Origin: Mesobacillus jeotgali
Lineage (GTDB): Bacteria > Bacillota > Bacilli > Bacillales > Cytobacillaceae
DNA length: 64,000 nt
Assembly: GCF_014856545.2 (NCBI RefSeq)
Contig: NZ_CP109811.1
Location: 1,296,001-1,360,000, forward strand
Reading direction: 5' to 3'
Position numbers and translations under genes: made by a program. Position 1 is the stretch's first letter; each line of letters starts with the position of its first letter. The notes below the pieces were generated by a model that made no database searches, was not told where the DNA came from, and saw only the letters and a list, made by a program, of their open reading frames with translations. Below, piece by piece: positions 2,004-17,750 of this stretch.

Positions 2004-3503
2004 GTGCTTCGACTAGAGCCAAAGCAATCAAGTTTTCACTCCGTATTATACGATAAAATACCAGAAAATCATATTCTTAAGAAGATTACTACTGTTGTAG
2101 ATTTCAGTTTTATTAATGAACTACTGATCGATAGCTATTCCAAACGGTTTGGACGTCCTGCAAAAGAACCTGAGTTGATGTGTAAACTTCTATTTCTACA
2201 ACATCTATATAATTATTCCGATGAACAAATCAAGGCGGAGGCAGAATTAAATCTTGCTTATCTGTATTTTCTTGGCCTCAATCCGGAAGATACCCTCCCT
2301 GATAAAAGTCTTCTTTCCAAATTCAGGACCCACCGTCTAGGAGAATCCACATTAGACGAAATCATTACTGAGATTGCACGACAATGTGTGGAACAAGGGA
2401 TCCTTGAAGGGAAGAGTGTGAGCATTGATGCCACCCATATTGAAGCAAATACAATAAAGAAGACACCTGAAAGATTAATGAAGCATATCGCCAAGAAAAT
2501 CGTTGGTGCCTATGAAATTGAATCGGGTCACTCCTTGGAAAATATACCGGAGGTACCAGATTACCAGGACATTCCGGATCACCATGAAGCCAAGAAGGTC
2601 ATGAAACAATACTTGGAAACCGTCATTGATGAAGCAGAAAAAAACATTTCAGGCCATGAACAGGAAACCCAGCAGATGATCCAGAAAGCGAAAGACATCC
2701 TCAGTGACCCGAAATTCATGAATCAAAAAGGCATTCGATCACTTATAGATGAAGATGCGAGGGTTGGACGAAAAAGTAAAACCCAGGATTTTTATGGCTA
2801 TAAAACAGAGTTCGTTATGACAACGGATGAGCGAATTATCACTTCAGTCCGAACATCAGATGGCGCTTATATGGATGGCGGTTACGCAAAAGAAATGTTA
2901 AAAGATACCCTTAAATCAGGTATGAACATCGATGAAGTTTATGGAGATAAGGCCTATTTCAGAAAATACATTCTCGATGACATACAGGAACTTAATGCCC
3001 GACCATACATACCAGTTAGCTCCCTAGTATACAGGCTGGATGAAAGTGAATTTACCTATAATAAAGATTCGGATGAATGGCAGTGCAGCCAGGGGAATAC
3101 AACACTAAATAAAAAACGCTATAAATCAAAGAGAAAAGATGGTGTCAGAGAGGGCTATAAGTATTACTTCGAGATCAACCAATGTAAGGCCTGTCCCTTG
3201 CATGATGAGTGTGCAAAGACCAGCGCGAGAAGAATCTTGGTCGTTGGATTGAACACCTCTGAATTTTATGAAATATCCCAGTATCAAAAAACTGAGGAAT
3301 TTAAGAAAAAGTATAAAAAGCGAGCAACCATCGAAGGGAAAAATGCGGAGCTTAAAAGGTTTCATGGCCTATCCCGAGCCAGGGGGTATGGTCTTTTAAG
3401 TGTGTCTGTACAATCAAAATTAGCCGCAATAGCAGTAAATTTAAAGAGGATAGCGGCGATCGCTTCCTCTTTTTTACTGCTTATTTCGGTGAAATCTATG
3501 TAA
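2004..3503 (+). CDS. IS1182-family DDE transposase
   Basis: A 499-residue transposase starting with GTG at 2004. The N-terminal DUF772-type domain covers about residues 15-95 (FGRPAKEPELMCKLLFLQ, SKFRTHRLG). The DDE acids can be placed at D142 (SIDATHIEA), D315 (YGDKAY) and E444 (in ATIEGKNAELKR, the Y-x2-R-x3-E-x6-K-type motif). A cysteine cluster (CKACPLHDEC, about residue 395) is typical of the family. The length matches intact members, so the element may still be active. No co-resident passenger gene. Confidence 0.93.
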   Translation: MLRLEPKQSSFHSVLYDKIPENHILKKITTVVDFSFINELLIDSYSKRFGRPAKEPELMCKLLFLQHLYNYSDEQIKAEAELNLAYLYFLGLNPEDTLPDKSLLSKFRTHRLGESTLDEIITEIARQCVEQGILEGKSVSIDATHIEANTIKKTPERLMKHIAKKIVGAYEIESGHSLENIPEVPDYQDIPDHHEAKKVMKQYLETVIDEAEKNISGHEQETQQMIQKAKDILSDPKFMNQKGIRSLIDEDARVGRKSKTQDFYGYKTEFVMTTDERIITSVRTSDGAYMDGGYAKEMLKDTLKSGMNIDEVYGDKAYFRKYILDDIQELNARPYIPVSSLVYRLDESEFTYNKDSDEWQCSQGNTTLNKKRYKSKRKDGVREGYKYYFEINQCKACPLHDECAKTSARRILVVGLNTSEFYEISQYQKTEEFKKKYKKRATIEGKNAELKRFHGLSRARGYGLLSVSVQSKLAAIAVNLKRIAAIASSFLLLISVKSM

Positions 3504-3607
3504 ATTGGAGTTCATTTCAAATGAGCTAACAAAAGGGAAAGAAAAAAGAGTGGTTTTTCACTGGTCTCGGAACACTCCTGCTGCTTTTTTCTATTGTTGG
3601 TTTTCTT

Positions 3608-3727
3608 AATCCAGCTCCAGCGCCTAGCCCCTCGAGTCGCTTCGGTCCGCCCAATGAAGTCAAAGAACGACTTCAATGGTCGGCCCTCCAGCGCTTGTCG
3701 AGGCTGAACGAGGCGCTTGCGCTTTTT
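3608..3727. repeat. Interspersed repeat family A
   Basis: A near-consensus copy of the family: CCAGCTCCAGCGCCTAGCCC, CTCGAGTCG, AATGAAGTCAAAGAACGACTTCA, CCCTCCAGCGCTTGTCGAGG, GAGGCGCTTGCGCTTTTT. The outer GCGCCTAGCCC pairs with GGCTGAACGAGGCGC and the inner GAAGTC with GACTTC, so an RNA copy would form a branched hairpin. It lies between the IS right end and the Fnr-type promoter. Confidence 0.8.
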
Positions 3728-3779
3728 GTTCTTCAGGTCACAAAATTGTCATACAAAATGGCGATAAGAGGTCCATTTA

Positions 3780-3822
3780 TGTGAGTTAGTTCACTTAATC
3801 ATGTTGGAAACACTTATATACT
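3780..3822 (+). promoter_or_regulatory. Fnr-type class II promoter of the radical SAM gene
   Basis: TGTGA-GTTAGT-TCACT (3780-3795) matches TGTGA-N6-TCACA in 9 of 10 positions. A TATACT -10 follows at 3817-3822, exactly 21 nt after the site, which puts the dyad at -41.5 from a +1 near 3829. The same geometry recurs at five other promoters in the block. Confidence 0.75.
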
Positions 3823-3854
3823 TCTTTTATAGAGAAGTACTTAAGGAGGCGCCA

Positions 3855-4982
3855 ATGATGTTCGATAGAGATTTTAACAAAGACCCATTCATTGTGATTT
3901 GGGAACTAACCAGAGCCTGCCAATTAAAATGCCTGCACTGTCGTGCGGAAGCACAATATAGAAGAGATCCGCGTGAATTGTCCTTTGAAGAAGGTAAAGC
4001 GCTGATTGACCAAATATATGAGATGAATAATCCGATGCTTGTGTTCACGGGTGGAGACCCATTGATGAGGGAAGACGTTTTTGATATCGCCGAATATGCG
4101 GTGAAAAAAGGTGTGCGTGTTTCAATGACACCAAGTGCGACACCTAATGTGACGAAAGAAGCGATTGAAAAGGCGAAGTCAGTTGGATTGTCCCGCTGGG
4201 CTTTCAGCATTGACGGACCAACAGCTGAAGTCCATGATCACTTCAGGGGAACAGCAGGTTCTTTTGATTTAACGATGGAAAGAATCAAGTACTTGCATGA
4301 ACTGGAAATCCCGATTCAAATCAATACTGTCATTTCACGGTATAATATTGAGTATTTGGATGAAATGGCTAAGATGGTCGAAGATTTGGATTGTGTACTT
4401 TGGAGTGTGTTTTTCCTAGTTCCGACAGGACGCGGACAGGAAAAGGACATGATCTCTCCGGTGGAGCATGAGAAAGTCTTCACCTGGCTGTATGATCTAA
4501 GCAAAAGGGTTAAGTTTGACATTAAAACAACAGCTGCACAGCATTATCGCCGGGTTGTCATCCAGCAAAAAATGCGCGAAGCAAAGGATCATACAGAAGA
4601 AATTGATTATTTGACTGCACTGACAAAGGAAGGGTTGACTGGCTCTATCGACGGCCTTGGCCGTGCGCCAAAAGGTGTCAATGATGGCAATGGTTTTGTC
4701 TTCATTTCCCACGTAGGAGATGTATACCCAAGCGGACTGCTGCCTGTAAAAGCAGGGAACGTAAGGGAACAACCCCTTGCAGATATTTACAGGGATTCTC
4801 CAGTCTTCAAATCATTAAGGAATCCTGATGAGTACAAAGGAAAATGCGGAGTGTGCGAATTCAGGCATGTATGCGGGGGGTCTCGTTCAAGAGCATACGC
4901 CATGACCGGTGATTACCTGGAGAGCGAGCCATTCTGCGTTTACATCCCTAAAGCGTTGAGAAAGCAAAAACAGGAGAGCTGA
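3855..4982 (+). CDS. Radical SAM/SPASM protein (BA_1875-type, TIGR04053-like)
   Basis: A 375-residue radical SAM enzyme. The ATG at 3855 follows AAGGAGG (3843-3849); an upstream in-frame ATG at 3801 lacks a ribosome site. The cluster motif C-Q-L-K-C-L-H-C (C-x3-C-x2-C) is near residue 22, a GGDP motif near residue 68, and a SPASM-type set (C-G-V-C, H-V-C-G-G, later F-C-V-Y) at the C terminus. The family is related to NirJ/AhbD enzymes that modify tetrapyrroles, so a role in anaerobic haem or peptide maturation is plausible but unproven. The Fnr-type promoter ties it to oxygen limitation. Confidence 0.85.
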   Translation: MMFDRDFNKDPFIVIWELTRACQLKCLHCRAEAQYRRDPRELSFEEGKALIDQIYEMNNPMLVFTGGDPLMREDVFDIAEYAVKKGVRVSMTPSATPNVTKEAIEKAKSVGLSRWAFSIDGPTAEVHDHFRGTAGSFDLTMERIKYLHELEIPIQINTVISRYNIEYLDEMAKMVEDLDCVLWSVFFLVPTGRGQEKDMISPVEHEKVFTWLYDLSKRVKFDIKTTAAQHYRRVVIQQKMREAKDHTEEIDYLTALTKEGLTGSIDGLGRAPKGVNDGNGFVFISHVGDVYPSGLLPVKAGNVREQPLADIYRDSPVFKSLRNPDEYKGKCGVCEFRHVCGGSRSRAYAMTGDYLESEPFCVYIPKALRKQKQES

Positions 4983-5049
4983 CAAAGCTCTCCTGGGGAA
5001 CAATAAAAAAAGCGAGTGATGTCATCAGGACATTCACTCGCTTTTTTTT
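4972..5049. terminator. Tandem hairpins, the second a bidirectional terminator
   Basis: AGGAGAGCT/AAGCTCTCCT forms a hairpin over the stop codon (4972-4994). AGCGAGTGATGT (5011-5022) with ACATTCACTCGCT (5030-5042) forms a second stem flanked by an A run and a T run, so it can end the radical SAM transcript and possibly the convergent fnr transcript. Confidence 0.8.
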
Positions 5050-5053
5050 ATAT

Positions 5054-5174
5054 TAATCCAGCTCCAGATCCTAGCCCCTCGAGACGTTTCGATCCGCCTA
5101 ATGAAGTCAAAGAAGGACTTCACCGGTCGGCTCTCCAACGTTTGTCGGGGCTGACCAAGGCGCCTGCGCTTTTC
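5054..5174. repeat. Interspersed repeat family A
   Basis: A full copy directly abutting the stop codon of the convergent fnr gene at 5175: CCAGCTCCAGATCCTAGCCC, CTCGAGACG, AATGAAGTCAAAGAAGGACTTCA, CTCTCCAACGTTTGTCGGGG, GGCGCCTGCGCTTTTC. It may act as the 3' end of the fnr mRNA. Confidence 0.8.
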
Positions 5175-5873
5175 TTAATCAATTGAACAAAAGACTGCCG
5201 GGCAGTTTTCACAGCCTATTTCCTGGCGTAAATAATCTACATCATGTACGAGGATTTTCCCTTTTTTAATTGAAATGATTCCTTCTCGCTTCAGGTCGTT
5301 CAAGATCCGGTTTGTACTTTCGCGTGAAGTTCCGCAGAAATTGGCCAGCTCCTGGTTAGTCAGTGGCAGGTCGATCAAAATGCCGGTATCTTTCTGGACA
5401 CCATAGCTGTTTGTCATTCGGATCAAGGTAGAGAATAATGCACCTTTTTTCCCGTTAAGAACCAGGTCGCGGAATTTAGTCTGCGTTTTACGGAAATGAT
5501 CGCTCATCCACTTCATGAATTCAAAAGCAAGTGATGGATTGTGGAAAATCTCCTTTTCGATCACATCTTTTCTGATGGCTGCGATTTTCGCATCTTCGAG
5601 GACCAGCGCACTTAAGAGATACTTAGGTGCATCAGTAAAAAGTGTCAACTCTCCGCAAATATCATTTTCTCCGCAAATTCTTAAGGCAAGCTCGCGGCCA
5701 TCCTGAGTGACTTTGCTGATTTGGACCTTGCCGCCCAGGATCAAATAAAGCTCTTCTGCCTCCATGCCTTCCTGGAACAGGTACGATCCTTTTTGCACTT
5801 GGATAGTACGGTCGGCAAACTGGAGTAATTCTTTAATTTCAATTGAATGAGTTGCTTTAGTTGTGTTTGGCAT
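5175..5873 (-). CDS. fnr: Fnr-type anaerobic transcription regulator (paralogue 1)
   Basis: A 232-residue CRP/FNR protein: cyclic-nucleotide-binding-like beta roll (about 15-115), dimer helix, and a C-terminal winged helix with recognition helix TSRESTNRIL (about 177-186). It ends in C-E-N-C-P-A-V-F-C (Cys 221, 224, 229). In B. subtilis Fnr three C-terminal cysteines plus Asp141 hold the [4Fe-4S] cluster; the matching Asp here is D136 in FRDLVL. The start is set at MPNTT (5873) because the paralogue has the same N-terminal length; an in-frame ATG at 5915 exists. No convincing Fnr box was found for its own promoter. Repeat copies flank both ends. Confidence 0.9.
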   Translation of the reverse strand: MPNTTKATHSIEIKELLQFADRTIQVQKGSYLFQEGMEAEELYLILGGKVQISKVTQDGRELALRICGENDICGELTLFTDAPKYLLSALVLEDAKIAAIRKDVIEKEIFHNPSLAFEFMKWMSDHFRKTQTKFRDLVLNGKKGALFSTLIRMTNSYGVQKDTGILIDLPLTNQELANFCGTSRESTNRILNDLKREGIISIKKGKILVHDVDYLRQEIGCENCPAVFCSID

Positions 5874-5925
5874 GGTCATCACCCTTTTTTTGAATTTAAA
5901 AAGCATTGATCTCACTTTGAGAATT

Positions 5926-6045
5926 GTCTAGCTCCTGCGCCTAGCCCCTCGAGACGTTTCGGTCAGCCAAATGAAGTCAAAGAGCGACTTCATCGGTCGG
6001 CCCTCCAACGCTAGTCGGGGCTAACCAAGGCGCATCCGCTTTTCT
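5926..6045. repeat. Interspersed repeat family A
   Basis: A full copy between the divergent fnr and narK genes: CTAGCTCCTGCGCCTAGCCC, CTCGAGACG, AATGAAGTCAAAGAGCGACTTCA, CCCTCCAACGCTAGTCGGGG, CAAGGCGCATCCGCTTTTC. It lies in what must be the fnr promoter or leader. A short palindrome TCTCACTTTGAGA (5910-5922) lies beside it. Confidence 0.8.
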
Positions 6046-6266
6046 TTTTTTCCGTGGCTTCTCTTTATTGACCCAATAATAACACCGGGATAGTGTTAAC
6101 TAAATGGTGATTAAGGAAATGTCAAAATCTCGTCACATTATAAGACCATTTTGTTCACATTTTCGAAACAAATTCAGTCAGCTTATCTATATTATATCGA
6201 TAATAAAAGTCGGGTGTTTCAATTGTTTAGAGACAACTGTGACAGTTTATTGAACACTGCTGAGGA

Positions 6267-6309
6267 TGTGAAGTTCGTCATATCTTATATTTTTGATTTT
6301 TCTTACTAT
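6267..6309 (+). promoter_or_regulatory. Fnr-type class II promoter of narK
   Basis: TGTGA-AGTTCG-TCATA (6267-6282, 9 of 10 consensus positions) is followed 21 nt later by TACTAT (6304-6309) as the -10. The predicted +1 is near 6316, leaving a leader of about 42 nt before the narK ATG. Confidence 0.72.
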
Positions 6310-6357
6310 TTAACAAAGGAACGTCTAGGACTGAATTTGTTGGGTAGAGGAGGAAAC

Positions 6358-7857
6358 ATGATCACAAAAAAAATTCAATTACCGCTTCAAACGTTGAGTC
6401 TTGTCGCCGGATTTATGGTATGGGTGATTTTATCTGCATTAATGCCGTTCATTAAAGAGGATATTCTGCTTTCTGCGAACCAGGTTGCAATGGCCACGGC
6501 CATTCCCGTCGTCCTCGGTTCTGTCCTGAGAATTCCAATTGGATTCTGGACTAACAAATATGGAGCGAGAAAACTGTTTTTTACTAGCTTTTTATTCCTT
6601 CTGTTTCCGGTTTATTTCATAAGTATCGCTGATTCCTATACAGATTTATTGATTGGAGGCTTGTTTGTCGGAATCGGGGGAGCCATTTTCTCTGTAGGCG
6701 TAACCTCACTGCCGAAATACTATCATAGAGAACGACATGGTTTCGTGAATGGTATATATGGAGTAGGAAACCTGGGAACTGCTCTTACAACTTTTACTGC
6801 ACCCGTTATTGCAGCTCAGTTCGGGTGGCAGACAACAGTCAAGTTTTTCATGTTCTTGCTGATCCTTTTTGCGTTACTGAACTTTTTCCTCGGTGATAAA
6901 AAAGAACCTAAAGTTGTGACTCCTCTGGGTGAGCAAATCAAAAGCGTTTACAAAAATCAGAAGCTTTGGGCACTGTGCTTATTTTACTTCTTAACTTTTG
7001 GTTCATTTGTAGCCTTCACGATCTATTTGCCAAACTTTCTTGTGTCTCATTTTGGGCTTGATAAAGTAGATGCTGGGTTAAGGACTGCAGGTTTCATTGC
7101 GCTGGCAACATTTTTCAGGCCGATTGGGGGCTGGCTGGGTGATAAATTCAATTCATTTGTCATATTGATGGTTGTGTTTGCTGGAATGACCATATCAGGC
7201 ATCCTGCTTTCATTTACGCCATCGTTGACACTATATACGATTGGCTGTCTCACAGTCGCAATCAGTGCCGGCATCGGGAATGGAACTATTTTCAAGCTTG
7301 TACCGCTTTATTTTTCAAAGCAAGCCGGGATCGTCAACGGAATCGTTTCAGCAATGGGAGGATTAGGAGGTTTTTTCCCGCCGCTAATGCTGGCATTCCT
7401 ATTCAACCTTACCGGACATTACGCAATAGGTTTCATGGCTTTATCACAAGTTGCCCTGGCAAGTTTGATCATTGTGATCTGGATGTACTATCAGGATAAA
7501 TTAAGTCTAGCTAAAAATATCATCGACCACACAGCAGAGGGAATCATGATTACAGATGTAAAGGGAACGATCGAAAAAGTAAATCCAGCCTTCACGACTG
7601 TAACAGGCTATAGTGCAGAGGAAGTCATTGGGGAAAACCCTCGCCTCCTGCAATCCGGTAAGCATGGGGCAGACTTTTACAGGGAGATGTGGAAATCCGT
7701 AAAAGACAATGGATTCTGGCAGGGGGAGATCTGGAACAAGAAGAAAAACGGTACAATTTATCCTGAATGGCTAACAATCAGCCCTGTGAAAAATGAAGCA
7801 GGTGAAATTAAGAACTTTGTCGGCATGTTCAGTGAATTGACCGTGAAAAACGAATAA
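6358..7857 (+). CDS. narK: NarK-type nitrate/nitrite transporter with C-terminal PAS domain
   Basis: A 499-residue membrane protein. The ATG at 6358 follows GAGGAGG; the open frame continues upstream from 6151 but without a ribosome site. Residues 1 to about 380 are a 12-helix MFS carrier with both nitrate-signature-like segments (GVGNLGTALTTF and GNGTIFKLVPLYF, then AMGGLGGF). From about residue 385 to the end there is a complete PAS domain (NIIDHTAEGIMITD, NPAFTTVTGYSAEEVIGENP, NGTIYPEWLTISPVKNE). B. subtilis NarK is about 395 residues and lacks it. No output domain follows the PAS. The carrier probably imports nitrate and exports nitrite; the PAS may sense a ligand or redox state (inference). 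Confidence 0.9.
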   Translation: MITKKIQLPLQTLSLVAGFMVWVILSALMPFIKEDILLSANQVAMATAIPVVLGSVLRIPIGFWTNKYGARKLFFTSFLFLLFPVYFISIADSYTDLLIGGLFVGIGGAIFSVGVTSLPKYYHRERHGFVNGIYGVGNLGTALTTFTAPVIAAQFGWQTTVKFFMFLLILFALLNFFLGDKKEPKVVTPLGEQIKSVYKNQKLWALCLFYFLTFGSFVAFTIYLPNFLVSHFGLDKVDAGLRTAGFIALATFFRPIGGWLGDKFNSFVILMVVFAGMTISGILLSFTPSLTLYTIGCLTVAISAGIGNGTIFKLVPLYFSKQAGIVNGIVSAMGGLGGFFPPLMLAFLFNLTGHYAIGFMALSQVALASLIIVIWMYYQDKLSLAKNIIDHTAEGIMITDVKGTIEKVNPAFTTVTGYSAEEVIGENPRLLQSGKHGADFYREMWKSVKDNGFWQGEIWNKKKNGTIYPEWLTISPVKNEAGEIKNFVGMFSELTVKNE

Positions 7858-7865
7858 GCATTTTT

Positions 7866-7896
7866 AAAAGACTGCGTCCTTGATGCAGTCTTTTCC
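7866..7896 (+). terminator. Rho-independent terminator after narK
   Basis: AAAAGACTGC (7866-7875) pairs perfectly with GCAGTCTTTT (7885-7894), followed by CC and further Ts. Confidence 0.85.
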
Positions 7897-7979
7897 TTGC
7901 TCTATCAAAATGAATAAACTTTTGAACGACCGATGCACTTGCACTTCCCTTATGATATTATGACAACATGATGACAATT

Positions 7980-8015
7980 CAACATAAAAACACTATCCTG
8001 GCAGTTTTTATGTTG
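7980..8015. promoter_or_regulatory. 12-bp perfect inverted repeat upstream of moaA
   Basis: CAACATAAAAAC (7980-7991) and GTTTTTATGTTG (8004-8015) are perfect inverted repeats separated by 12 nt. No T run follows, so it does not look like a terminator. It lies about 56 bp upstream of the Fnr-type site of moaA and could be an operator for another regulator. The remaining bases of the narK-moaA gap hold only the terminator and the Fnr promoter. Confidence 0.5.
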
Positions 8016-8070
8016 TAATATAGACATAAGGATTAAATTTACTATTCTAATAGAGGACTATTGATGTTAC

Positions 8071-8113
8071 TGTGAGAATATTAACAGTTAACCACATTTG
8101 TTGCTGTTACAAT
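8071..8113 (+). promoter_or_regulatory. Fnr-type class II promoter of moaA
   Basis: TGTGA-GAATAT-TAACA (8071-8086) differs from the consensus in one of ten positions. TACAAT (8108-8113) follows after 21 nt as the -10, with a predicted +1 near 8120. Confidence 0.72.
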
Positions 8114-8151
8114 GTCAGTAATCATCACTTCTATAATTGGAGTTGACACAT

Positions 8152-9168
8152 ATGGTAAAAAGCATAATAAAAGACCAATTAAATAGACCGCTCCGCGATT
8201 TGCGTATTTCTGTTATAGATCGATGTAATTTTCGCTGTCAGTATTGTATGCCTGCCGAGATATTTGGCCCTGACTTCGCTTTTCTTCCCAAAAGCGAGTT
8301 ATTGTCATATGAAGAAATTGAACGTGTAGCCAAGTTATTCATAGAGCTTGGGGTGGAAAAGATCAGGCTTACAGGCGGAGAGCCGTTAATGCGTAAGGAT
8401 TTGCCGATTCTCGTCAGGATGCTGAATGAGATCGAAGGATTGAAGGATATTGCTTTAACCACCAACGGCGTAATGCTGCCGAAGTATGCCGAGGAGCTGC
8501 GTGCTGCCGGCCTGAAGCGGGTAAATATCAGTCTGGACAGTTTAAAAGATGAATTGTTTGGCGAAATTAATGGCCGGAATGTTGGTGTCGGGCCGGTATT
8601 AAAAGGAATTGAATCAGCGAAGAAAGCTGGCCTGGGCGTTAAGATCAATATGGTCATTAAAAAGGGACTCAATGATTCTGAGATTCTTCCAATGGCCGAA
8701 TTCTGCAAAAAAGAAGGCCTTGAGCTTCGCTACATTGAATACATGGATGTGGGCAGCACGAACGGCTGGAAAATGGATGATGTCATCACCAAGAAGCAGA
8801 TCCATGACCTTCTAAGTCAGCATTATGAATTAGAGCCTGTTGATCCTGAGTATTTCGGTGAAGTGGCTAAAAAATACCGTTATAAAGGTACTGATATTCA
8901 TGTCGGCTTTATTTCATCGGTATCAGAGTCATTTTGTTCAAGCTGTACAAGGTCACGATTGTCAGCGAACGGCCAGATATTCACATGCCTGTTCAATGGC
9001 AATGGGCATGATATCCGCGACTTCATGCGCGCCGGTGCTACAGATGATGAACTCCGAACCCGAATTACGGACGTCTGGAATCACAGAACGGACCGCTATT
9101 CAGATGAACGAACAGCTGAAACAGTGGCGAACAGAAAGAAAATCGAAATGTCCTATATTGGCGGCTAA
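8152..9168 (+). CDS. moaA: GTP 3',8-cyclase MoaA
   Basis: A radical SAM enzyme that converts GTP to 3',8-cyclo-GTP, the first step of molybdopterin synthesis. The ATG at 8152 follows TTGGAG at 8138-8142; an in-frame TTG at 8137 is less likely. It is 338 residues. The N-terminal cluster C-N-F-R-C-Q-Y-C is near residue 24. The C-terminal cluster C-S-S-C with a third Cys 14 residues on (IFTCLF) is near residue 262, and the chain ends in the conserved G-G. The molybdenum cofactor is needed for respiratory nitrate reductase, which fits its place after narK and its Fnr-type promoter. Confidence 0.95.
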
Positions 9169-9190
9169 GACTCCTTCGGGGGTCTTTTTT
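9167..9190 (+). terminator. Terminator after moaA
   Basis: AAGACTCC-TTC-GGGGGTCTT followed by TTTTT; the stem overlaps the moaA stop codon. Confidence 0.8.
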
Positions 9191-9352
9191 ATTTTGTCCT
9201 ATTTCAATCAGAGTCAGCAGCTCTTCACAAAAATTGGTCACTCAAGATACAGTGACTTTTCAGGCTTATGGAAAATTTGGGCATACTATGTTTCCGGTCA
9301 AATGGTTTATGGGTATACATGAATCTACTATAAATTTGTTGGAGAATGCTGA

Positions 9353-10864
9353 ATGCTAAAAAGAAGACTGGAATTTTTATTTGTATTTATTTTAATGGCA
9401 TGTGTCTATATTGTTTTTTTCACCGACTATAGCCAGACTTTCAAGATATCAGCCATACTGATCTATGCGGTGATCATATTTATCAGCATGTATTCATTAA
9501 TGCTTGAAAACCGTTCGGCCCAGCACACGCTGATGTGGATGTATGTCATGCTGCTTTTTCCCGTGGGCGGTTATTTCTTCTATTTATTTTCGGGTCAGCT
9601 GTATTTGAAAGGTTATTTATATAAAAGCAAGCGTACGAGAGACCGTGATCAGTGGGAAAAACTGATGAGGAAGGAAGAGTCGAGAGACCTTTCTTTTTTA
9701 ATCGAAAATCAGCAATGCTTCGCAAAGTATGCAAAAAATGCTACCCTGACCCCAATTACGACAGCTTCCAGGGCCAAAATATTGAAAAATGGTGATGAGA
9801 CGTTTTCCGAGATTAAGGAAAAGCTGCGTAAAGCAAAAAAGTTCATTCATATGGAATATTATATCTTCAGATCTGACCGGCTTGGCAGAGAAATTATTGA
9901 TATCCTTATTGAAAAAGCAAGGCAGGGAGTCGAGGTTCTGTTTATTTTCGATGCTGCTGGAAGCATGAAAATTTCGGCAACAGATTTAAAGGATATGCAG
10001 GAAGCAGGCATTAAAGCGGCTCCTTTTTCACCGCTGAAGTACGGTTTCTTCAATCAGAAATTCAATTTTCGCAATCACAGGAAAATCGTCATAATTGATG
10101 GTGAAATCGGATTTGTCGGTGGTTTGAATGTTGGAGTCGAATACCTGGGTGAAGATGAAAAAATCGGTTTCTGGCGTGATACTCATATGATGCTGACAGG
10201 AGAGGCTGTATATACCCTTCACAATGTCTTCTTGCTGGATTGGGAATATGTAAGCGGGGAGAGTGTCCTGGAGGATCATCGCGCAGTGAAAAAGCCTCAT
10301 GAAGATGATGAACTTGATGGTGCGATCCAGGTCGTACCAAGCGGACCGGACACGCAGCAGGGAATCATGAGTGATTTTTACTATACGATGATGTCCTGTG
10401 CCACTAAGTCAATTTGGATCGCTACACCTTATTTTGTCCCTGATGAAGCAATCCGGACTGCATTGAAGGTAGCAGCAGCAAAGGGAATTGAAGTCAGGAT
10501 CATGGTTCCGGAGATCAATGACAGCTATCTGACGCAATATGCGAGCCGTTCCTACTATTCAGAGCTATTGCGGAACGGAGCTGAAATCTACTCTTACAAA
10601 AAAGGCTTTTTACATCAGAAGGTCATCATCGTCGACGGAAATATCGCTTCGGTTGGGACTGCCAATATGGACATGAGGAGTTTCCATCTGAATTTTGAAG
10701 TCAATGTGTTCTTGTTTGGTACAAGCTCGATCAGGGACCTTGTGGCCCATTATGAAGAGGACCTTGAAGAGTCAGAGAAAATCAGTCCTGTCCAATATCA
10801 TAAGCGCGGACTATGGGAACGGACGAAAGAATCCTTCGCGCGGCTGTTCTCCGGGGCATTATAA
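9353..10864 (+). CDS. cls: Cardiolipin synthase (phospholipase D family)
   Basis: A 503-residue membrane enzyme that condenses two phosphatidylglycerols into cardiolipin. Two N-terminal transmembrane helices (about residues 5-25 and 30-52) are followed by two PLD domains with complete HKD motifs: HRKIVIIDG (about residue 241) and HQKVIIVDG (about residue 421). The ATG at 9353 follows TTGGAG. B. subtilis carries the ywiE cardiolipin synthase near its nitrate-respiration genes, and the moaA neighbour here suggests this is the YwiE counterpart (inference). No Fnr-type site was seen in the 184-bp upstream gap, which holds no other gene. Confidence 0.92.
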   Translation: MLKRRLEFLFVFILMACVYIVFFTDYSQTFKISAILIYAVIIFISMYSLMLENRSAQHTLMWMYVMLLFPVGGYFFYLFSGQLYLKGYLYKSKRTRDRDQWEKLMRKEESRDLSFLIENQQCFAKYAKNATLTPITTASRAKILKNGDETFSEIKEKLRKAKKFIHMEYYIFRSDRLGREIIDILIEKARQGVEVLFIFDAAGSMKISATDLKDMQEAGIKAAPFSPLKYGFFNQKFNFRNHRKIVIIDGEIGFVGGLNVGVEYLGEDEKIGFWRDTHMMLTGEAVYTLHNVFLLDWEYVSGESVLEDHRAVKKPHEDDELDGAIQVVPSGPDTQQGIMSDFYYTMMSCATKSIWIATPYFVPDEAIRTALKVAAAKGIEVRIMVPEINDSYLTQYASRSYYSELLRNGAEIYSYKKGFLHQKVIIVDGNIASVGTANMDMRSFHLNFEVNVFLFGTSSIRDLVAHYEEDLEESEKISPVQYHKRGLWERTKESFARLFSGAL

Positions 10865-10875
10865 TGTGTGATGCA

Positions 10876-10912
10876 ATAAAAAATGCCCCATCATTTAAAT
10901 GATTGGGGCATT
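10876..10912 (-). terminator. Terminator between convergent cls and ric
   Basis: AATGCCCCATCATTT and AAATGATTGGGGCATT form a long stem (10882-10912). On the minus strand it is followed by TTTTTTATTG, so it best serves the ric transcript. Confidence 0.8.
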
Positions 10913-10919
10913 GTTCCGG

Positions 10920-11618
10920 TTAGGCAATATATCTTGGGAAAAGAATGTTGTTTTCTAGATGAACATGCATGAAGGTATGTGATTCCAATGCCTCAAGACG
11001 CTTGTATACTAAACGGTATGTCCCGCAAGCATCGATAGGCGGATTGAAGTCAGCAGTGATTTCACGCAGTTCTTTTAAAATCGAGCCAGCATGATCGTGT
11101 TCCTTTTCCAGTTCCGTGATTTCCGAGATCATTTCAGAACGCTTTTCATCATTGGCAGTATCAAGCTGCAGCAACAGTGGGAAGACGGTTGCTTCTTCTT
11201 TTGCCGTATGCTCTAGGAGTTCCTTTTTCAACTCATAGAAAAGCTCATAGACTTTTAACAGCTCTTCGTGGCGGTCACCATGAACTTTAGCTACTTTAGT
11301 TACATATGGGCTGAGAAGTTTTAACTCTTCTTCAAGCTCGCGGTGGTATTTGGTCTTGATATGGTCGATCAACTCCGCAGAGTCCGTTTCGGTCCAAACC
11401 TCCATGCTTTCGGCAGCACCGTTATGTTTACGATATAACTCTTCGAGTGCAGCCATGATTGCCGGCACGTCCAGGTTCTGTTCAGCAGCCGCTTCAGCTA
11501 AAGGGCGGTTGCCGCCACAGCAGAAATCCAGTCTGTTCTGCTTGAATAAGTCACTTGATTGAGGGAATATATTGACGATATCTTTAACTAAAGAATTTTG
11601 ATCAAAAGGCATTTTCAT
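10920..11618 (-). CDS. ric: Iron-sulfur cluster repair di-iron protein (Ric/ScdA/YtfE)
   Basis: A 232-residue protein that restores Fe-S clusters damaged by nitric oxide or oxidants. The N-terminal ScdA_N/DUF542 domain (about 5-65) carries the double cysteine in DFCCGGN. The hemerythrin-like domain follows with the iron-binding histidines and acids in KYHREL, HGDRHEE, LLEHTAKEEATVF, EKEHDHAG and ESHTFMHVHLENNILFP. The ATG at 11618 follows GGAGG by 8 nt. It is divergent from moeA and has its own Fnr-type promoter, which fits a role against NO formed during nitrate respiration. ScdA is the staphylococcal name. Confidence 0.93.
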   Translation of the reverse strand: MKMPFDQNSLVKDIVNIFPQSSDLFKQNRLDFCCGGNRPLAEAAAEQNLDVPAIMAALEELYRKHNGAAESMEVWTETDSAELIDHIKTKYHRELEEELKLLSPYVTKVAKVHGDRHEELLKVYELFYELKKELLEHTAKEEATVFPLLLQLDTANDEKRSEMISEITELEKEHDHAGSILKELREITADFNPPIDACGTYRLVYKRLEALESHTFMHVHLENNILFPRYIA

Positions 11619-11661
11619 GTGAGAAACCTCCAGTAAAATATTTAATACTGTTTACATACTC

Positions 11662-11704
11662 ATCATAAAGGAAATGGTTTTACTACTTGGTGATGTGCAT
11701 CACA
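11662..11704 (-). promoter_or_regulatory. Fnr-type class II promoter of ric
   Basis: On the minus strand TGTGA-TGCACA-TCACC (11704-11689, 9 of 10) is followed after 21 nt by TATGAT (11667-11662). Predicted +1 is near 11655, with a leader of about 36 nt. Confidence 0.75.
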
Positions 11705-11751
11705 CTTCACAAAAAATCTACATATTTTCAGGAGATTATATGAGAAAATAC

Positions 11752-11794
11752 TGTGAGGTTTGTTATGTTTTCATTTTTACATTACTCTTATAAT
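11752..11794 (+). promoter_or_regulatory. Fnr-type class II promoter of moeA (weak right half-site)
   Basis: TGTGA-GGTTTG-TTATG (11752-11767) has a perfect left half and a poor right half (2 of 5). A perfect TATAAT (11789-11794) follows after exactly 21 nt. The strong -10 may offset the weaker site. Assignment leans on the shared geometry. Confidence 0.55.
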
Positions 11795-11840
11795 GAAAAG
11801 GGTATATTTATAAGTTAAGCCTGCAATAGGAGCTGATTAT

Positions 11841-13106
11841 ATGTTAGAGAAAAGAAACCCCATTCCAATAGGGGAGGCAGTCAAGAGAGTGATGGAGCTT
11901 AAGAAAAACGGCTCCACTGAATATGTTTCGATTAATGAAAGCTATGGACGCTATCTTTCGGAGGACTTGAAAGCAACCAGCGATGTGCCGCATTTTGACA
12001 GAGCGCCATACGATGGTTATGCAATCCGTTCTGTCGATACACAGGAAGCCTCTCAAAATCACGCTGTTGAATTTGAGGTGGTGGACCATATCGGTGCAGG
12101 TATGCTTACGGATAAAGAACTTGGACCGTTCCAGGCGGTAAGGATCATGACAGGCGCTCAGATGCCTGTGGGAGCTGACGCTGTTGTTATGCTTGAATTG
12201 GCTAAAGAACACGAACGTGATGGAAAAAAATACATGGAAACAAAGCGCAAACACAATGAAGGAGACAATGTTTCCTACCGCGGGGAGGATGCAAAGGAAG
12301 GCGAGGTCCTCGTAAAAAAAGGTACCTTCATCAATCCTGGGATCCAGGCGATGCTAGCAACTTTCGGTTATGCAAAAGTACCAGTTGCAAAGAAACCAGT
12401 GATCGGCCTGTATGCAACAGGGACTGAATTGCTCGATGTCGATGAACCGCTTGAGCCGGGGAAAATTCGCAACAGTAACTCTTATATGATATCCGCGCAA
12501 ATTCTTCGTGCAGGTGCAGAACTAAAATACTTCGGCCAGCTGCCTGATGATTTTGATACATGCTTCGATGCAGTGAGTAAAGCGATTGAACAAGTGGATT
12601 TATTCATTACGACCGGCGGGGTTTCCGTCGGGGATTACGACTATCTGCCGGAAATTTATGCAAAGCTTGGGGCAGAGGTGTTGTTCAATAAGGTAGCGAT
12701 GAGGCCAGGCAGCGTCACTACTGTAGCCCAGCTTGACGGGAAGTTATTGTTTGGCCTCTCAGGAAACCCTTCAGCTTGCTATGTAGGCTTTGAATTGTTC
12801 GCCCGTCCAATCATCAGGACGATGCTGTTCACTGATCAGCCTCATTTGAGAAAGGAGAAAGCGATTCTTGATGCCAATTTCCCTAAAGCAAATCCATTTA
12901 CTAGATTTGTAAGGAGTGCCCTGACAATCGAGAATGGAAAACTGGTAGTGACACCAAGCGGCCTGGATAAATCAAACATCATCATGAGCCTTGCCGGGGC
13001 TAACTCCCTCATGATTCTGCCTGGCGGCACGAGAGGCTTTGAACAGGGAACCGAGGTAGAGGTGCTGATGCTTGAAGACCATGTGGGCAGCGAATGGCCT
13101 TGGTAA
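11841..13106 (+). CDS. moeA: Molybdopterin molybdenumtransferase MoeA
   Basis: A 421-residue protein that inserts molybdate into adenylylated molybdopterin to give active cofactor. The ATG at 11841 follows TAGGAG. The MoeA N-terminal motif PHFDRAPYDGYAIRS is near residue 50. The MoCF-binding core shows TTGGVSVGDYDYLP (about residue 255) and FGLSGNPSACYVGFE (about residue 303), followed by the C-terminal beta barrel. The last 13 bases overlap mobB, so the two are translated together. With moaA it supplies cofactor for molybdoenzymes encoded outside the window. Confidence 0.94.
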   Translation: MLEKRNPIPIGEAVKRVMELKKNGSTEYVSINESYGRYLSEDLKATSDVPHFDRAPYDGYAIRSVDTQEASQNHAVEFEVVDHIGAGMLTDKELGPFQAVRIMTGAQMPVGADAVVMLELAKEHERDGKKYMETKRKHNEGDNVSYRGEDAKEGEVLVKKGTFINPGIQAMLATFGYAKVPVAKKPVIGLYATGTELLDVDEPLEPGKIRNSNSYMISAQILRAGAELKYFGQLPDDFDTCFDAVSKAIEQVDLFITTGGVSVGDYDYLPEIYAKLGAEVLFNKVAMRPGSVTTVAQLDGKLLFGLSGNPSACYVGFELFARPIIRTMLFTDQPHLRKEKAILDANFPKANPFTRFVRSALTIENGKLVVTPSGLDKSNIIMSLAGANSLMILPGGTRGFEQGTEVEVLMLEDHVGSEWPW

Positions 13107-13609
13107 AACCGGTGTTGTTCCAGATTGCAGGGTACCAAAACAGCGGCAAAACCACGCTTAGCCTGACGTTGATTAAACAGCTGACTGCAGCTGGCCTTAA
13201 GGTAGCGACCGTGAAACATCATGGGCATGGCGGCAAGCCGGAAGTTGTTGAGGCAAAGGATTCAGATAAGCATATTAAGGCTGGGGCAGCTGTCTCACTT
13301 GTAGAAGGAGGAGGCAGGATGGTCATCCAGGCTGAAAAAGGTTCATGGTCCCTTGCTGAAGAAATAGAGATGCTTTCCTTCTTCAAGCCAGATGTAATAT
13401 TGATTGAAGGCTATAAGAAAGAGCCCTTTCCCAAGGCGGTCATCCTGCGTGATGAAAAAGATTTGGAGCTGTTGGAAAAGCTTCAGAATATCCAGGTCAT
13501 CTTATGCAGAGATCCTGGACTGCAAGACTTATTAAAGGATATAGCTCTCCCTGTTCTTAATATGGATGAGGGAGTTAGCTGGATTTTAGGGGAAATCACC
13601 AAAATATAG
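13094..13609 (+). CDS. mobB: Molybdopterin-guanine dinucleotide biosynthesis protein MobB
   Basis: A 171-residue P-loop GTP-binding protein. The Walker A motif G-Y-Q-N-S-G-K-T-T is near residue 13, and LIEGYKKEPFPK (about residue 98) is typical of MobB. It aids conversion of molybdopterin to the guanine dinucleotide form used by nitrate reductase and formate dehydrogenase. It overlaps the moeA end by 13 bp with no strong ribosome site of its own, indicating coupled translation. mobA is not in the window. Confidence 0.92.
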   Translation: MALVKPVLFQIAGYQNSGKTTLSLTLIKQLTAAGLKVATVKHHGHGGKPEVVEAKDSDKHIKAGAAVSLVEGGGRMVIQAEKGSWSLAEEIEMLSFFKPDVILIEGYKKEPFPKAVILRDEKDLELLEKLQNIQVILCRDPGLQDLLKDIALPVLNMDEGVSWILGEITKI

Positions 13610-13754
13610 GTGATTTCCTCTAGGTCGTTCAAGGTTCAGCAAGAAAAGTTCTTATTTTAGACATATACGGCGACATTTGTCACTGTCACTTTATACCTAC
13701 CCGGTTAGAATGTTAATGGGGTTCAGGTTGTGACATATGTGTGAGGTGAGAGCG

Positions 13755-14183
13755 ATGGAAATGCTGCAAATCTTTTTGTGGATTGTGTATCCATATTCAG
13801 TTGTGGCAATTGTAGCGATGGGACTAGTCTGGCAGTACGATGCATCGAGAGAGGAAGGAACACGTTCGAAAGCAGGGAGGCTTCTGCTCGGCGTCGTCAA
13901 AACACTTATGGCTGCAAGCACGGCGACAGGTATTGCGATCGTGCTGTCAAGCAGCATAGCCTACGAACCGGTATTGCTTTTAAGATGGCTCATCAGCCTT
14001 GCCCAACTGCAGCCGGACATGAGCCTTGTCATGGATGTTTCCATTCTTTCGAAGGTCCATTTTATTATTGTATTCCTATTCCTGTTGAGTCTGGCATTCA
14101 CGAAGGAAATTTATTATTTGCTAAAACCGCACTTATATTTAAAGAAAATCTTTTTAAAATTGCATTTTGAAAGAAGAGGCTGA
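13755..14183 (+). CDS. Short NarI-like membrane protein (nitrate reductase gamma-type)
   Basis: A 142-residue integral membrane protein. The ATG at 13755 follows GAGGTGAG; an ATG at 13737 is in frame but lacks a ribosome site. Three or four hydrophobic helices are visible: LWIVYPYSVVAIVAMGLVW, a middle pair, and HFIIVFLFLLSLAFTKEIYY near the end. The opening W-x-V-Y-P-Y resembles NarI (gamma) proteins, but it is far shorter than the usual ~225 residues and no narGHJ lies nearby. A weak Fnr-like half-site with the same 21-nt spacing occurs upstream (TCACT 13686-13690, GTTAAT 13712-13717). Function is uncertain. Confidence 0.6.
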   Translation: MEMLQIFLWIVYPYSVVAIVAMGLVWQYDASREEGTRSKAGRLLLGVVKTLMAASTATGIAIVLSSSIAYEPVLLLRWLISLAQLQPDMSLVMDVSILSKVHFIIVFLFLLSLAFTKEIYYLLKPHLYLKKIFLKLHFERRG

Positions 14184-14204
14184 TGGCAGCCTCTTCTTTT
14201 CTTT
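14173..14204 (+). terminator. Terminator of the NarI-like gene, target of the group II intron
   Basis: GAAGAGGCTG (14173-14182), loop ATGG, CAGCCTCTTC (14187-14196), then TTTTCTTT. The stem overlaps the stop codon. The intron begins right after the T tract. Confidence 0.85.
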
Positions 14205-16070
14205 GTGTGCCAGGCATGTTCATTAACTTGGCGGTGAAAGTCCGCTATGGGCGTTGGGATATGCGAACCATTAGCTGAAGGCAAGGGTGTCCGTGGCGAC
14301 GCGGAATCTGAAGGAAGCCCTAGGCAAATCCTCGGTCTGAGGTACACGAATCACATTTGAGGTTTTCATTCCTGGATGAGTCTGCAAAACAAGATGAAGT
14401 CCAAAATATCCCCGGATGGAATGGAAATAAATGTGGCAGATACATGAGGAGAAAGTGAATGAACTTACCCTGGGAGATCTCTTAACCTCCCTGACGGGAA
14501 CCTATTTAGCGATAAATAGCTGAGTTAAGAGAAGTCAGCAGAAGTCATAGTATCAACCTCTTGGTTGAGAAGGACTGAACGAAAGGAGTGACCATGTTAG
14601 AGCCATTTACAAAGAGGCAATGACACAGTAAACCAGAAGGGCTTTGGAGAAGAAGATTGGACGGAATCCAGGAGATCTTCTTTTGAAGCGTGGAGCCACT
14701 TTGTACAAACTTGATGACATGGGACCAATATGGAAACTAATGATAGTTTAATTCAAAGAATTATAAGTCCAGAAAACCTAAACCTAGCCTTTCTGAAGGT
14801 AAAAAGAAATAAAGGGGCAGCTGGTGTCGATGCGAAAGATATAGAAGCTACCCGCCTTCATCTTAAAGAGCAAGGACAGGAAATCATCAGGCTTATACAG
14901 GACGGAAAATATAAGCCCCAGCCGGTAAGAAGAGTCGAAATTCCCAAACCAGATGGCGGGAAGAGAAAGTTAGGAATCCCAACAGTAACAGACCGTGTTT
15001 TCCAACAGGCTATGGTTCAAGTCCTAACCCCTATATTTGATAGACAATTTAGCCATTATAGCTATGGTTTTAGACCGAACAAGAGCGCACATCAAGCTAT
15101 CGAACAGGCTAGGTCATTCATTGACGACGGATATCAATTTGTGGTGGACATTGACCTGGAGAAATTCTTCGATAAAGTGAATCATGATAAACTCATGTCC
15201 CTAATTTCCAAGACAATAGAGGACAAACCCACTTTGAAGTTAATCCGACGGTATTTACAAGCAGGAATTATGGAGAATGGATTAGTTACAGTAAATAAAG
15301 AAGGGACCCCTCAAGGAGGTCCGCTAAGCCCTCTCCTTAGTAACATCATGCTAAATGAACTGGATAAGGAAATTGAAAAACGTGGACATAAATTTGTCCG
15401 TTATGCCGATGACTGCAACATATACGTTAAGAGTCTAAAAGCTGGAGAACGGGTTAAACAGGGTATCACGGATTTTATCGAGAGAAAGTTAAAACTGAAG
15501 GTCAACGAGGAGAAAAGTGCAGTGGGAAAGCCATCGGCACGTATATTCTTAGGGATGAGTTTTTACTCTTCGAGCAACAAAACCCGGATATACGTGCCGA
15601 AGAAGTCGAAAAAGAGACTCGAGGAAAAGCTTAAAAGGTTAACAAACCGTAACTGGGGAATTGCCATGGAATACCGAATCCTTAAAATCAACCAACTAAT
15701 CCAGGGATGGGGAAATTACTTCAAAGTAGCTGATATCAAGAGATATGCAGAAAAGATAGACGGTCATATCAGGAGAAGGCTACGTGCTTGTCGCTGGAAA
15801 GAATGGAAGAAAACCAGGACTAAATTCCGGAATCTGATTAGATTAGGAATTAAAAGATATAAAGCCTGGCAATATGCAAACTCCCGAAAGGGATACTGGA
15901 GAAATTCAAAGAGTCCTGCCTTGGATCAAGCCATGAATAATAAATACTGGCTTCAGCAAGGGTTGAAACAATTAACAAACATTATTACATAAACTTTCGA
16001 ACCGCCGTATACCGAACGGTACGTACGGTGGTGTGAGAGGTCGGGGGTTAATCACCCCCTCCTACTCGAT
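14205..16070 (+). mobile_element. Group II intron (class C-like) with reverse transcriptase
   Basis: The 5' end is GTGTGCC at 14205, matching the GUGYG intron start. A structured 5' RNA region of about 520 nt precedes the RT gene. After the ORF, domain V is recognisable (GAACCGCCG...CGGTGG, about 15999-16032), then domain VI with the GGGGG/CCCCC stem and the end CCTACTCGAT at about 16070. Insertion directly behind a Rho-independent terminator and the absence of an endonuclease domain fit class C introns. Exact 3' end inferred from the terminal AT. Same orientation as the flanking genes. Confidence 0.85.
14730..15992 (+). CDS. ltrA: Group II intron reverse transcriptase/maturase
   Basis: A 420-residue intron-encoded protein. 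The RT fingers-palm has KPDGGKRKLGIPTV, YGFRPNKSAHQA, TPQGGPLSPLLSNI and the catalytic R-Y-A-D-D (about residue 226). A maturase/X domain follows (INQLIQGWGNYF, about residue 325). There is no C-terminal HNH endonuclease, as expected for class C RTs that use replication forks or terminators for mobility. The frame is intact. It helps splice the intron and copy it into new sites. Confidence 0.94.
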   Translation: METNDSLIQRIISPENLNLAFLKVKRNKGAAGVDAKDIEATRLHLKEQGQEIIRLIQDGKYKPQPVRRVEIPKPDGGKRKLGIPTVTDRVFQQAMVQVLTPIFDRQFSHYSYGFRPNKSAHQAIEQARSFIDDGYQFVVDIDLEKFFDKVNHDKLMSLISKTIEDKPTLKLIRRYLQAGIMENGLVTVNKEGTPQGGPLSPLLSNIMLNELDKEIEKRGHKFVRYADDCNIYVKSLKAGERVKQGITDFIERKLKLKVNEEKSAVGKPSARIFLGMSFYSSSNKTRIYVPKKSKKRLEEKLKRLTNRNWGIAMEYRILKINQLIQGWGNYFKVADIKRYAEKIDGHIRRRLRACRWKEWKKTRTKFRNLIRLGIKRYKAWQYANSRKGYWRNSKSPALDQAMNNKYWLQQGLKQLTNIIT

Positions 16071-16110
16071 TTGACAGTTCGGTGTCATATGGACTATTCA
16101 CACAAGAAAA

Positions 16111-16153
16111 TGTGATGTGTTTCACTTATTCATCCTTTCAACTGCTTTATATT
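16111..16153 (+). promoter_or_regulatory. Fnr-type class II promoter of ywiC
   Basis: TGTGA-TGTGTT-TCACT (16111-16126, 9 of 10) is followed after 21 nt by TATATT (16148-16153). Predicted +1 is near 16160. It lies only 41 bp beyond the intron end, so the intron did not disrupt it. Confidence 0.75.
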
Positions 16154-16184: not shown

Positions 16185-16670
16185 ATGAAGTTATTTATGC
16201 CAAAACAGCATGGAGCCTGGGCGATGTTGATCATCCCTTTCTGGCTTGGAGCAGCGGCAAGTGAAATAGTCTGGCAGCATATCCCGTTTTTTATCGGATG
16301 GCTATTACTATATTTAGGAACATATCCACTTCTATTGATGTTCAAGAAAAAGAAAATCCCATTTTATCGTAAATGGGCCCTTATTTATATGATTCCAGCG
16401 CTTGTGTTCTTAATGGTACCATTGTTCACGTCACCAACAATCGTATCCTTTGGCCTTGCGATGATTCCGTTTTTCATGCTCAATGCATATTTCTCTGCTA
16501 AAAATAAAGATCGTGCTCTCCTTAATGATTTAAGTGCAATCGTTGTTTTCTCTATTGCCGGACTGGCAAGCAGCTATCTCCCGAGTGCGGAAATCAATGA
16601 AAATGCCATTCTTGTTTTTGCTGCCTCAATCCTATTTTTCGCAGGAAGCACATTTTACGTAAAACCATGA
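16185..16670 (+). CDS. ywiC: YwiC-like membrane protein, N-terminal part (frame-split)
   Basis: A 161-residue part of a YwiC-family membrane protein. The N terminus MKLFMPKQHGAWAMLIIPFW is the family hallmark (K-Q-H-G-A-W), followed by about five hydrophobic helices. The frame ends prematurely at VKP-stop (TGA 16668-16670), while the family continues in the -1-shifted frame from 16667. One extra A in the AAAA run at 16661-16664 would restore GTA AAA ACC ATG. B. subtilis ywiC lies beside fnr and narGHJI; its function is unknown. A real mutation, a sequencing error or functional splitting cannot be told apart here. Confidence 0.75.
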   Translation: MKLFMPKQHGAWAMLIIPFWLGAAASEIVWQHIPFFIGWLLLYLGTYPLLLMFKKKKIPFYRKWALIYMIPALVFLMVPLFTSPTIVSFGLAMIPFFMLNAYFSAKNKDRALLNDLSAIVVFSIAGLASSYLPSAEINENAILVFAASILFFAGSTFYVKP

Positions 16671-17666: not shown

Positions 17667-17750
17667 ATTATACTCCCTTCCGTATCTGATATTAATATAA
17701 TTATATTGTAAAGCATATAAAGCCAGCAATAAAATTGTGAATTGTTCACA
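17667..17750 (-). promoter_or_regulatory. fnr2 promoter and 15-bp TGTGA palindrome
   Basis: On the minus strand TTAATA (-35, 17695-17690), 17-bp spacer and TATAAT (-10, 17672-17667) form a good SigA promoter. The -10 is itself enclosed by GGGAG/CTCCC arms. Upstream at 17736-17750 is TGTGAATTGTTCACA, a Fnr/Rex-like dyad with N5 rather than N6 between TGTGA and TCACA, centred about 83 bp before the predicted start. It lies between divergent fnr2 and argC; which regulator binds is unknown. Confidence 0.5.

Follow-up and report, generated by a model that had tools for sequence, protein, structure and literature searches.

The Fnr protein of Bacillus subtilis carries cysteines with CX2CX4C spacing and recognizes a TGTGA/TCACA operator at position −41.5, and class II promoters of Escherichia coli FNR and CRP use the −41.5 position in place of a −35 element. 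Part of one published account describes the B. subtilis protein as holding a C-terminal cluster and controlling narGHJI (PMC8139620). Here we describe six promoters within a 64,000-nucleotide (nt) stretch of the Mesobacillus jeotgali genome, referred to below as the window (contig NZ_CP109811.1, positions 1,296,001–1,360,000; the genome is a single contig of 4,835,561 bases). Judged from their sequence, these are very probably activator-dependent class II promoters of a Bacillus-type Fnr regulon, which is a known kind. The −41.5 position replaces the −35 element as it does in E. coli class II promoters, and, unlike the TTGAT of E. coli FNR, the operator here is a CRP-like TGTGA. In its C-terminal cluster and nitrate-respiration targets, the locus resembles the B. 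subtilis Fnr regulon (narGHJI, narK-fnr) as presented in that part of the account (PMC8139620); it differs in that its targets include ric, moaA, moeA-mobB, a NarK-PAS fusion and an AhbD-like radical SAM (S-adenosylmethionine) gene.

We define the operator as TGTGA-N6-TCACA (16 bases) and the gap as the number of nucleotides between the operator and the −10 hexamer. The first-pass annotation of this DNA reported a −10-like hexamer exactly 21 nt beyond each of six sites, and all six were reproduced. On the plus strand, TGTGAGTTAGTTCACT precedes TATACT (3817–3822) upstream of the radical SAM gene (promoter 3780–3822), TGTGAAGTTCGTCATA precedes TACTAT upstream of narK-PAS (6267–6309), TGTGAGAATATTAACA precedes TACAAT upstream of moaA (8071–8113), TGTGAGGTTTGTTATG precedes TATAAT upstream of moeA-mobB (11752–11794) and TGTGATGTGTTTCACT precedes TATATT upstream of ywiC (16111–16153). 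On the minus strand, TGTGATGCACATCACC (operator at 11689) precedes TATGAT upstream of ric (11662–11704). The described likeness to TGTGA-N6-TCACA holds for five sites, which have 1 mismatch each, and less well for the weak site at 11752, which has 3; all mismatches fall in the right half as oriented. With the −10 hexamer at −12 to −7, a 21-nt gap places the operator centre at −41.5, so the proposed class II spacing is borne out. None of the six promoters has a −35 element (best matches of 1–3/6 over spacings of 16–18, against a background mean of 2.5), as expected of activator-dependent class II promoters.

The operator alone is not enriched in the window (27 sites with ≤2 mismatches against 30.8 expected), and the argument therefore had to rest on spacing. 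We counted gaps to TANNNT hexamers with at least 4/6 matches to TATAAT. Among sites with ≤1 mismatch, gap 21 occurs in 6 of 12 oriented sites, and each of the other gaps between 10 and 35 is seen once at most. The corresponding counts are 7 of 54 (at most 2 at other gaps) with ≤2 mismatches and 13 of 426 (at most 9) with ≤3. That the constant spacing is unlikely by chance, as initially argued, is upheld by a binomial probability of 5e-9 derived from the other gaps, or 1e-7 after multiplication by 26 gaps, in which the two orientations of one operator are not independent. One of the six gap-21 counts is the moaA site read on the opposite strand, beyond which no open reading frame of ≥50 amino acids starts within 250 nt.

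A genome-wide scan for the operator followed at gap 21 by a −10 hexamer, which the first-pass annotation had called for, returned 30 matches compared with 6 for the reversed operator pattern, the control used for all composite promoter counts. The operator alone (≤1 mismatch) occurs 119 times versus 79 for the reversed pattern. Six of the 30 composite matches are inside the window and 24 outside, so the six sites, although supported as Fnr-type anaerobic/nitrate promoters, do not by themselves define an anaerobic regulon as had been claimed. Gap counts covered 69 of the 119 sites, namely all 19 exact sites and the 50 one-mismatch sites listed, 6 of which lie in the window. Gap 21 is found in 14 of the 138 orientations of these sites, the window's own included (P 4e-8), while the other 94 gaps have a mean of 2.1 and a maximum of 7. 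The signal is weaker outside the window, where gap 21 accounts for 5 of 38 orientations of exact sites (P 8e-4) and 3 of 80 orientations of 40 one-mismatch sites (elsewhere a mean of 1.04 and a maximum of 4, at gap 22). At least 10 of the 24 outside matches lie ≤400 nt upstream of anaerobic, N-oxide or terminal-oxidase genes. These targets include nirB, a classic narK, hcp, hmp, a YtfE-like hemerythrin gene, a 2-oxoacid:ferredoxin oxidoreductase subunit, a quinol-oxidase-type subunit II, a DUF2249 gene beside a qNor gene, and two COX2-type genes, both about 310 nt downstream of their matches and behind a small open reading frame.

We examined conservation in 41 genomes, the M. jeotgali genome included, of which 21 belong to the genus and 20 do not. 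The composite promoter occurs 819 times in these genomes against 181 for the control, 38 of the 41 exceed their own control, and the lowest real count among the genus genomes (19) is above the highest control (9). For the radical SAM gene, a site with ≤1 mismatch at gap 21 is present in all 26 full-length orthologues, which include five other families (G028, G029, G033, G036 and G040). The other four of the 30 radical SAM loci comprise one cut by a contig end, one in G024 (69% identical, with its site 247 nt upstream) and two second copies with weak sites only. At ric, a gap-21 TANNNT follows a site with ≤2 mismatches in 29/29 loci, with at least 4/6 matches in the −10 hexamer in 28 of them. 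Gap-21 sites are likewise found at 25 of 27 ywiC loci and at 18 of 25 narK-PAS loci, the latter including 16/16 genus orthologues and 0/5 second copies. Within the genus, the moaA site is kept in 19 of 21 loci (loci were found in 30 of 34 matching genomes) and the moeA site, with 3 mismatches allowed, also in 19 of 21. Outside the genus, a 2-mismatch site stands near the moeA start in 2 of 9 loci (G022 and G040), and the right half of the moeA site is one base nearer the consensus in G008 and G022.

In genus alignments of loci selected for having a site, the half-sites are 89–100% identical per column. Neighbouring positions are clearly less conserved at ywiC (70% in the spacer, 67% upstream), the radical SAM gene (69% upstream) and narK (75% in the spacer, 59% downstream), and the difference is small at moaA, ric and moeA, where the flanks are well preserved too. 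In a further sample of 80 radical SAM loci from genome_contigs, a gap-21 promoter (≤2 mismatches) is present in 63, with ≤9 counts at any other gap from 8 to 39; of these 63, four belong to second copies and are of the TGTAA type, and two are located >360 nt upstream. These 80 loci also encode an Fnr homologue in 52 cases, ric in 37, moaA in 37, moeA in 31 and ywiC in 29. The spacing statistics, the genome-wide targets and the conservation across genera and families thus support the class II Fnr-type assignment.

The genes behind these promoters suggest what such a regulon would do. The radical SAM gene (3855–4982, plus strand; radical SAM/SPASM family TIGR04053, AhbD-like, 375 amino acids) has its likely start at 3855 or 3858; the mechanically assigned start at 3801 is not the likely one and lies upstream of the −10 hexamer. 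Also on the plus strand are a NarK-type MFS transporter fused to a PAS domain (6358–7857) and moeA (11841–13106) and mobB (13094–13609), all three recognized by profile search, as well as the GTP 3',8-cyclase gene moaA (8152–9168; 395 bits, cut-off 284) and the gene of a YwiC-like protein (16185–16670; PF14256). The ric/scdA/ytfE iron-sulfur cluster repair gene is on the minus strand (10920–11618; TIGR03652 250 bits, cut-off 205). In the absence of oxygen, dimeric Fnr would hold a [4Fe-4S] cluster by its C-terminal cysteines and bind TGTGA-N6-TCACA centred at −41.5, replacing the −35 element. Bound Fnr would then recruit sigma-A RNA polymerase to the −10 hexamer 21 nt beyond, and transcripts would start accordingly. 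The island would in this way switch on nitrate/nitrite transport (narK-PAS), molybdenum cofactor synthesis (moaA, moeA-mobB), iron-sulfur repair (ric), ywiC, the AhbD-like radical SAM enzyme and probably the NarI-like protein discussed below. In the literature searched, which covered few subscription papers, we found neither a link of Fnr with ywiC and narK nor a Bacillus Fnr binding site associated with denitrification and moaA.

The first-pass annotation also placed a half-site-only candidate before the gene of a NarI-like membrane protein (13737–14183, plus strand; likely start 13755; C-terminal part of PF02665 only). This was misplaced, and a better candidate is GGCGACATTTGTCACT at 13669, which has three mismatches to TGTGA-N6-TCACA and a gap of 21 to TAGAAT at 13706 (13669–13711, plus strand). 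Site and gap are kept in all 19 loci in which the NarI-like gene was located (30 loci given), and the site columns are 97.7% identical, whereas the flanking stretches of 30 nt reach 73.5% and 66.5%. The left half reads GGCGA in 18 of the 19, which means that the element may be a weak Fnr site or, from its sequence, the site of another factor. Its −35 match is 4/6, and given this the promoter may be partly activator-independent.

Several regulators could act on these operators. The genome encodes four Crp/Fnr-type proteins with CX2CX4C at the C-terminus. Two of these are encoded elsewhere and two in the window on the minus strand, namely the Bacillus-type Fnr paralogue 1 (5175–5915; C-terminal CENCPAVFC) and paralogue 2 (16949–17641; C-terminal CENCPIEIC, recognition helix GTSREVVNR), which are 52% identical. 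A fifth Crp/Fnr-type protein (helix GTSRETVSR) is cysteine-less, having no CX2CX4C, and is encoded at L299 16829–17518, beside a qNor gene. An R-E-x3-R recognition helix like that of CRP is common to all five. This helix fits the TGTGA half-site, and any of the five could read the operator. The presence of several Fnr paralogues is unlike the B. subtilis regulon, and none of them has its own gap-21 site where tested. Autoregulation through gap-21 sites was considered and rejected, as no such site was found upstream of fnr1 in the 11 loci located (25 given), of fnr2 homologues in 30/30 loci, a set that serves as a negative control, or of fnr3 at one locus. Between fnr2 and argC lies TGTGAATTGTTCACA (17736–17750), which has N5 rather than N6 spacing and is by eye off the gap-21 register.

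A number of observations weigh against reading the six sites as promoters of a Bacillus-type Fnr regulon. The site at 11752 is weak, of 9 moaA loci outside the genus, 2 have a site and 7 do not, and upstream of moeA gap 18 outnumbers gap 21 by 17 counts to 4 (≤2 mismatches), the former being the ric operator read towards moeA. Fourteen of the 24 matches outside the window could not be linked with an anaerobic gene, the reversed pattern by itself already yields 6, and the narK and quinol-oxidase gene matches have their mismatch within the −10 hexamer. Downstream of the scanned matches narG was not recognized, and narGHJI was not located. The same promoters could also be real and be read, in some or all cases, by the cysteine-less protein, perhaps an N-oxide sensor, or by another of the five paralogues. 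The cysteine-less protein shares the recognition-helix pattern and has the qNor gene as its neighbour in this genome, and in G028, G033 and G040 its relatives are encoded close to the radical SAM gene; one genome (G023) retains ric and ywiC sites with no Fnr homologue at E 1e-30. Across genomes, however, the promoter excess tracks the cysteine-type Fnr: it is higher in 8 non-genus genomes with an Fnr homologue of ≥50% identity than in the 12 others (P 0.002, with the identity line drawn after seeing the matches and the genomes not independent), and two apparent exceptions among the 12, G029 and G039, do encode a CX2CX4C Fnr, though a more distant one. Two cysteine-type genes moreover sit inside the island, and we consider a different reader possible but rather unlikely.

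Even less probable, to the point of being a slight prospect, is that the sites are bound for repression or in some other arrangement and that overlapping promoters give rise to the −10 spacing incidentally. An exact palindrome upstream of the quinol-oxidase gene (L041) does have its gap-21 TANNNT pointing away, which would suit such an arrangement, but the gap stays at 21 across families while spacer and flanks diverge, and the six promoters lack a −35 element. Site counts taken without spacing are at background in the window, as they would be if chance sites in AT-rich intergenic DNA had been chosen by eye. The spacing statistics, the excess in the genome and in the 41 genomes, and the conservation in orthologues refute this for the set, making it barely credible overall; single weak members such as 11752 or 13669 may still be chance sites.

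The radical SAM gene may connect the proposed Fnr regulon to anaerobic heme synthesis. AhbD catalyses the coproheme to heme step in some organisms, as stated in part of PMC7242693, and ChdC/HemQ is described as needing H2O2 in part of PMC10965808. The radical SAM protein scores 539.9 bits against TIGR04053, above the cut-off of 395. Its best match to a family of named function is AhbD TIGR04545, at 389 bits and thus below the cut-off of 500. It contains CX3CX2C and a C-terminal CX2CX5CX20C, and CX3CX2C plus CX2CX5CX20-38C is found in 29 of 30 radical SAM loci, the exception probably being the contig-end-cut G010. This combination is reported as common to all 39 AhbD compared in the relevant part of PMC10452713, so that the cysteine motifs fall within those shared by AhbD (Methanosarcina barkeri, Desulfovibrio). 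Unlike AhbD, the protein scores below the cut-off, lacks the cysteines of the extra auxiliary cluster and co-occurs with ChdC; the AhbD group without extra-cluster cysteines is, in that same part of PMC10452713, described as not studied biochemically. No AhbD is among the 7 solved chains matched to the protein by sequence, so that structural similarity would probably point no further than the SPASM radical SAM family. Many homologues bear the JGI name 'AdoMet-dependent heme synthase', a label for which we found no test, and TIGR04053 is not named in the same literature searched.

The radical SAM gene tends to be found together with ric and with Fnr. Among the 20 non-genus genomes, ric is present in 7/7 with the gene versus 2/13 without it (P 0.0005), and an Fnr homologue of ≥50% identity in 6/7 versus 2/13 (P 0.004). 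ChdC (PF06778) is present in 41/41 genomes, which makes a presence/absence test against it uninformative and implies that the radical SAM enzyme would be an anaerobic alternative. The two would catalyse the same proposed reaction, coproheme to heme b, with ChdC not belonging to the radical SAM family. In a sample of 398 genomes of the phylum, TIGR04053 exceeds its cut-off in 16. Flanks of up to 1.5 kb were scanned at 14 distant Bacillota loci, and a porphyrinogen oxidase gene adjoins the radical SAM gene in 3 (two genera). In G415 and G375 (one genus, family f20; loci among L306, L308 and L322), the radical SAM gene is immediately followed by one for a HemY-type porphyrinogen oxidase (TIGR00562, 378 and 381 bits, cut-off 98); in G367, from another family, it is convergent with a HemY-type gene (125 bits). 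Among 71 frames of ≥150 codons in these flanks, protoporphyrinogen oxidase (3) and copper nitrite reductase (3) are the most frequent named enzymes, and DUF2249 and hemerythrin have single matches. The 80 genome_contigs loci (flanks ≤6 kb, tblastn E 1e-15) weigh against a pairing with heme genes, with no HemY-type oxidase and no ChdC.

Second copies of the radical SAM gene are about 70% identical. The one in this genome, at 2808525, has no heme genes among the neighbours scanned, and those in relatives have no TGTGA-type site, only weak or TGTAA-type ones. We observe TGTAA-N6-TTACA 21 nt before TATAAT at second copies in L406, L410, L412 and L413 (upstream of 6001) and in L120. This operator, which we take to be NtcA-like, is perhaps read by another Crp/Fnr paralogue.

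Several further features lie in the window or elsewhere in the genome. A group II intron between the NarI-like gene and the ywiC promoter has Rfam D1–D4 matches at 14290–14575 and a reverse transcriptase/maturase at 14730–15992. A 131-nt intergenic repeat is present in four copies (129–259, 3599–3729, 5046–5176 and 5916–6046), the others being 68–84% identical to the reference copy, and two copies stop short of the radical SAM and narK-PAS sites by 50 and 220 nt. Upstream of the radical SAM gene is a 499-amino-acid transposase-like open reading frame (2004–3503), presumably of IS1182 type. Outside the window, a YVTN-type beta-propeller gene (L301, 5849–6958) is preceded at gap 21 by a perfect TGTGATGTGCATCACA; its product partially matches lactonase-type nitrous-oxide reductase (100 bits, cut-off 700) and Pfam Cytochrom_D1 (48 bits, cut-off 25.5).

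A spacing rule first seen by eye thus extends to several families within one order and, on sequence alone, places genes in a likely anaerobic regulon. The promoters are of a known kind, and the added value lies in the regulon evidence and in a testable candidate enzyme. An Fnr-type promoter adds physiological context to this heme-synthase candidate, which may supply heme to anaerobic cytochromes under conditions in which ChdC, being peroxide-dependent, is unable to act. Staphylococcus aureus can synthesize heme anaerobically, with CgoX acting one step earlier in the late pathway, according to part of PMC6620371; if anaerobic heme makers such as S. aureus lack TIGR04053, other solutions must exist. 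We regard the odds as even that the Fnr-driven, AhbD-like TIGR04053 enzyme is the missing oxygen-independent coproheme decarboxylase of nitrate-respiring Bacillaceae, replacing ChdC in the absence of oxygen and peroxide. It is a candidate for the enzyme, called unknown in a 2024 paper, that completes heme without oxygen in bacteria whose coproporphyrin pathway depends on oxygen.

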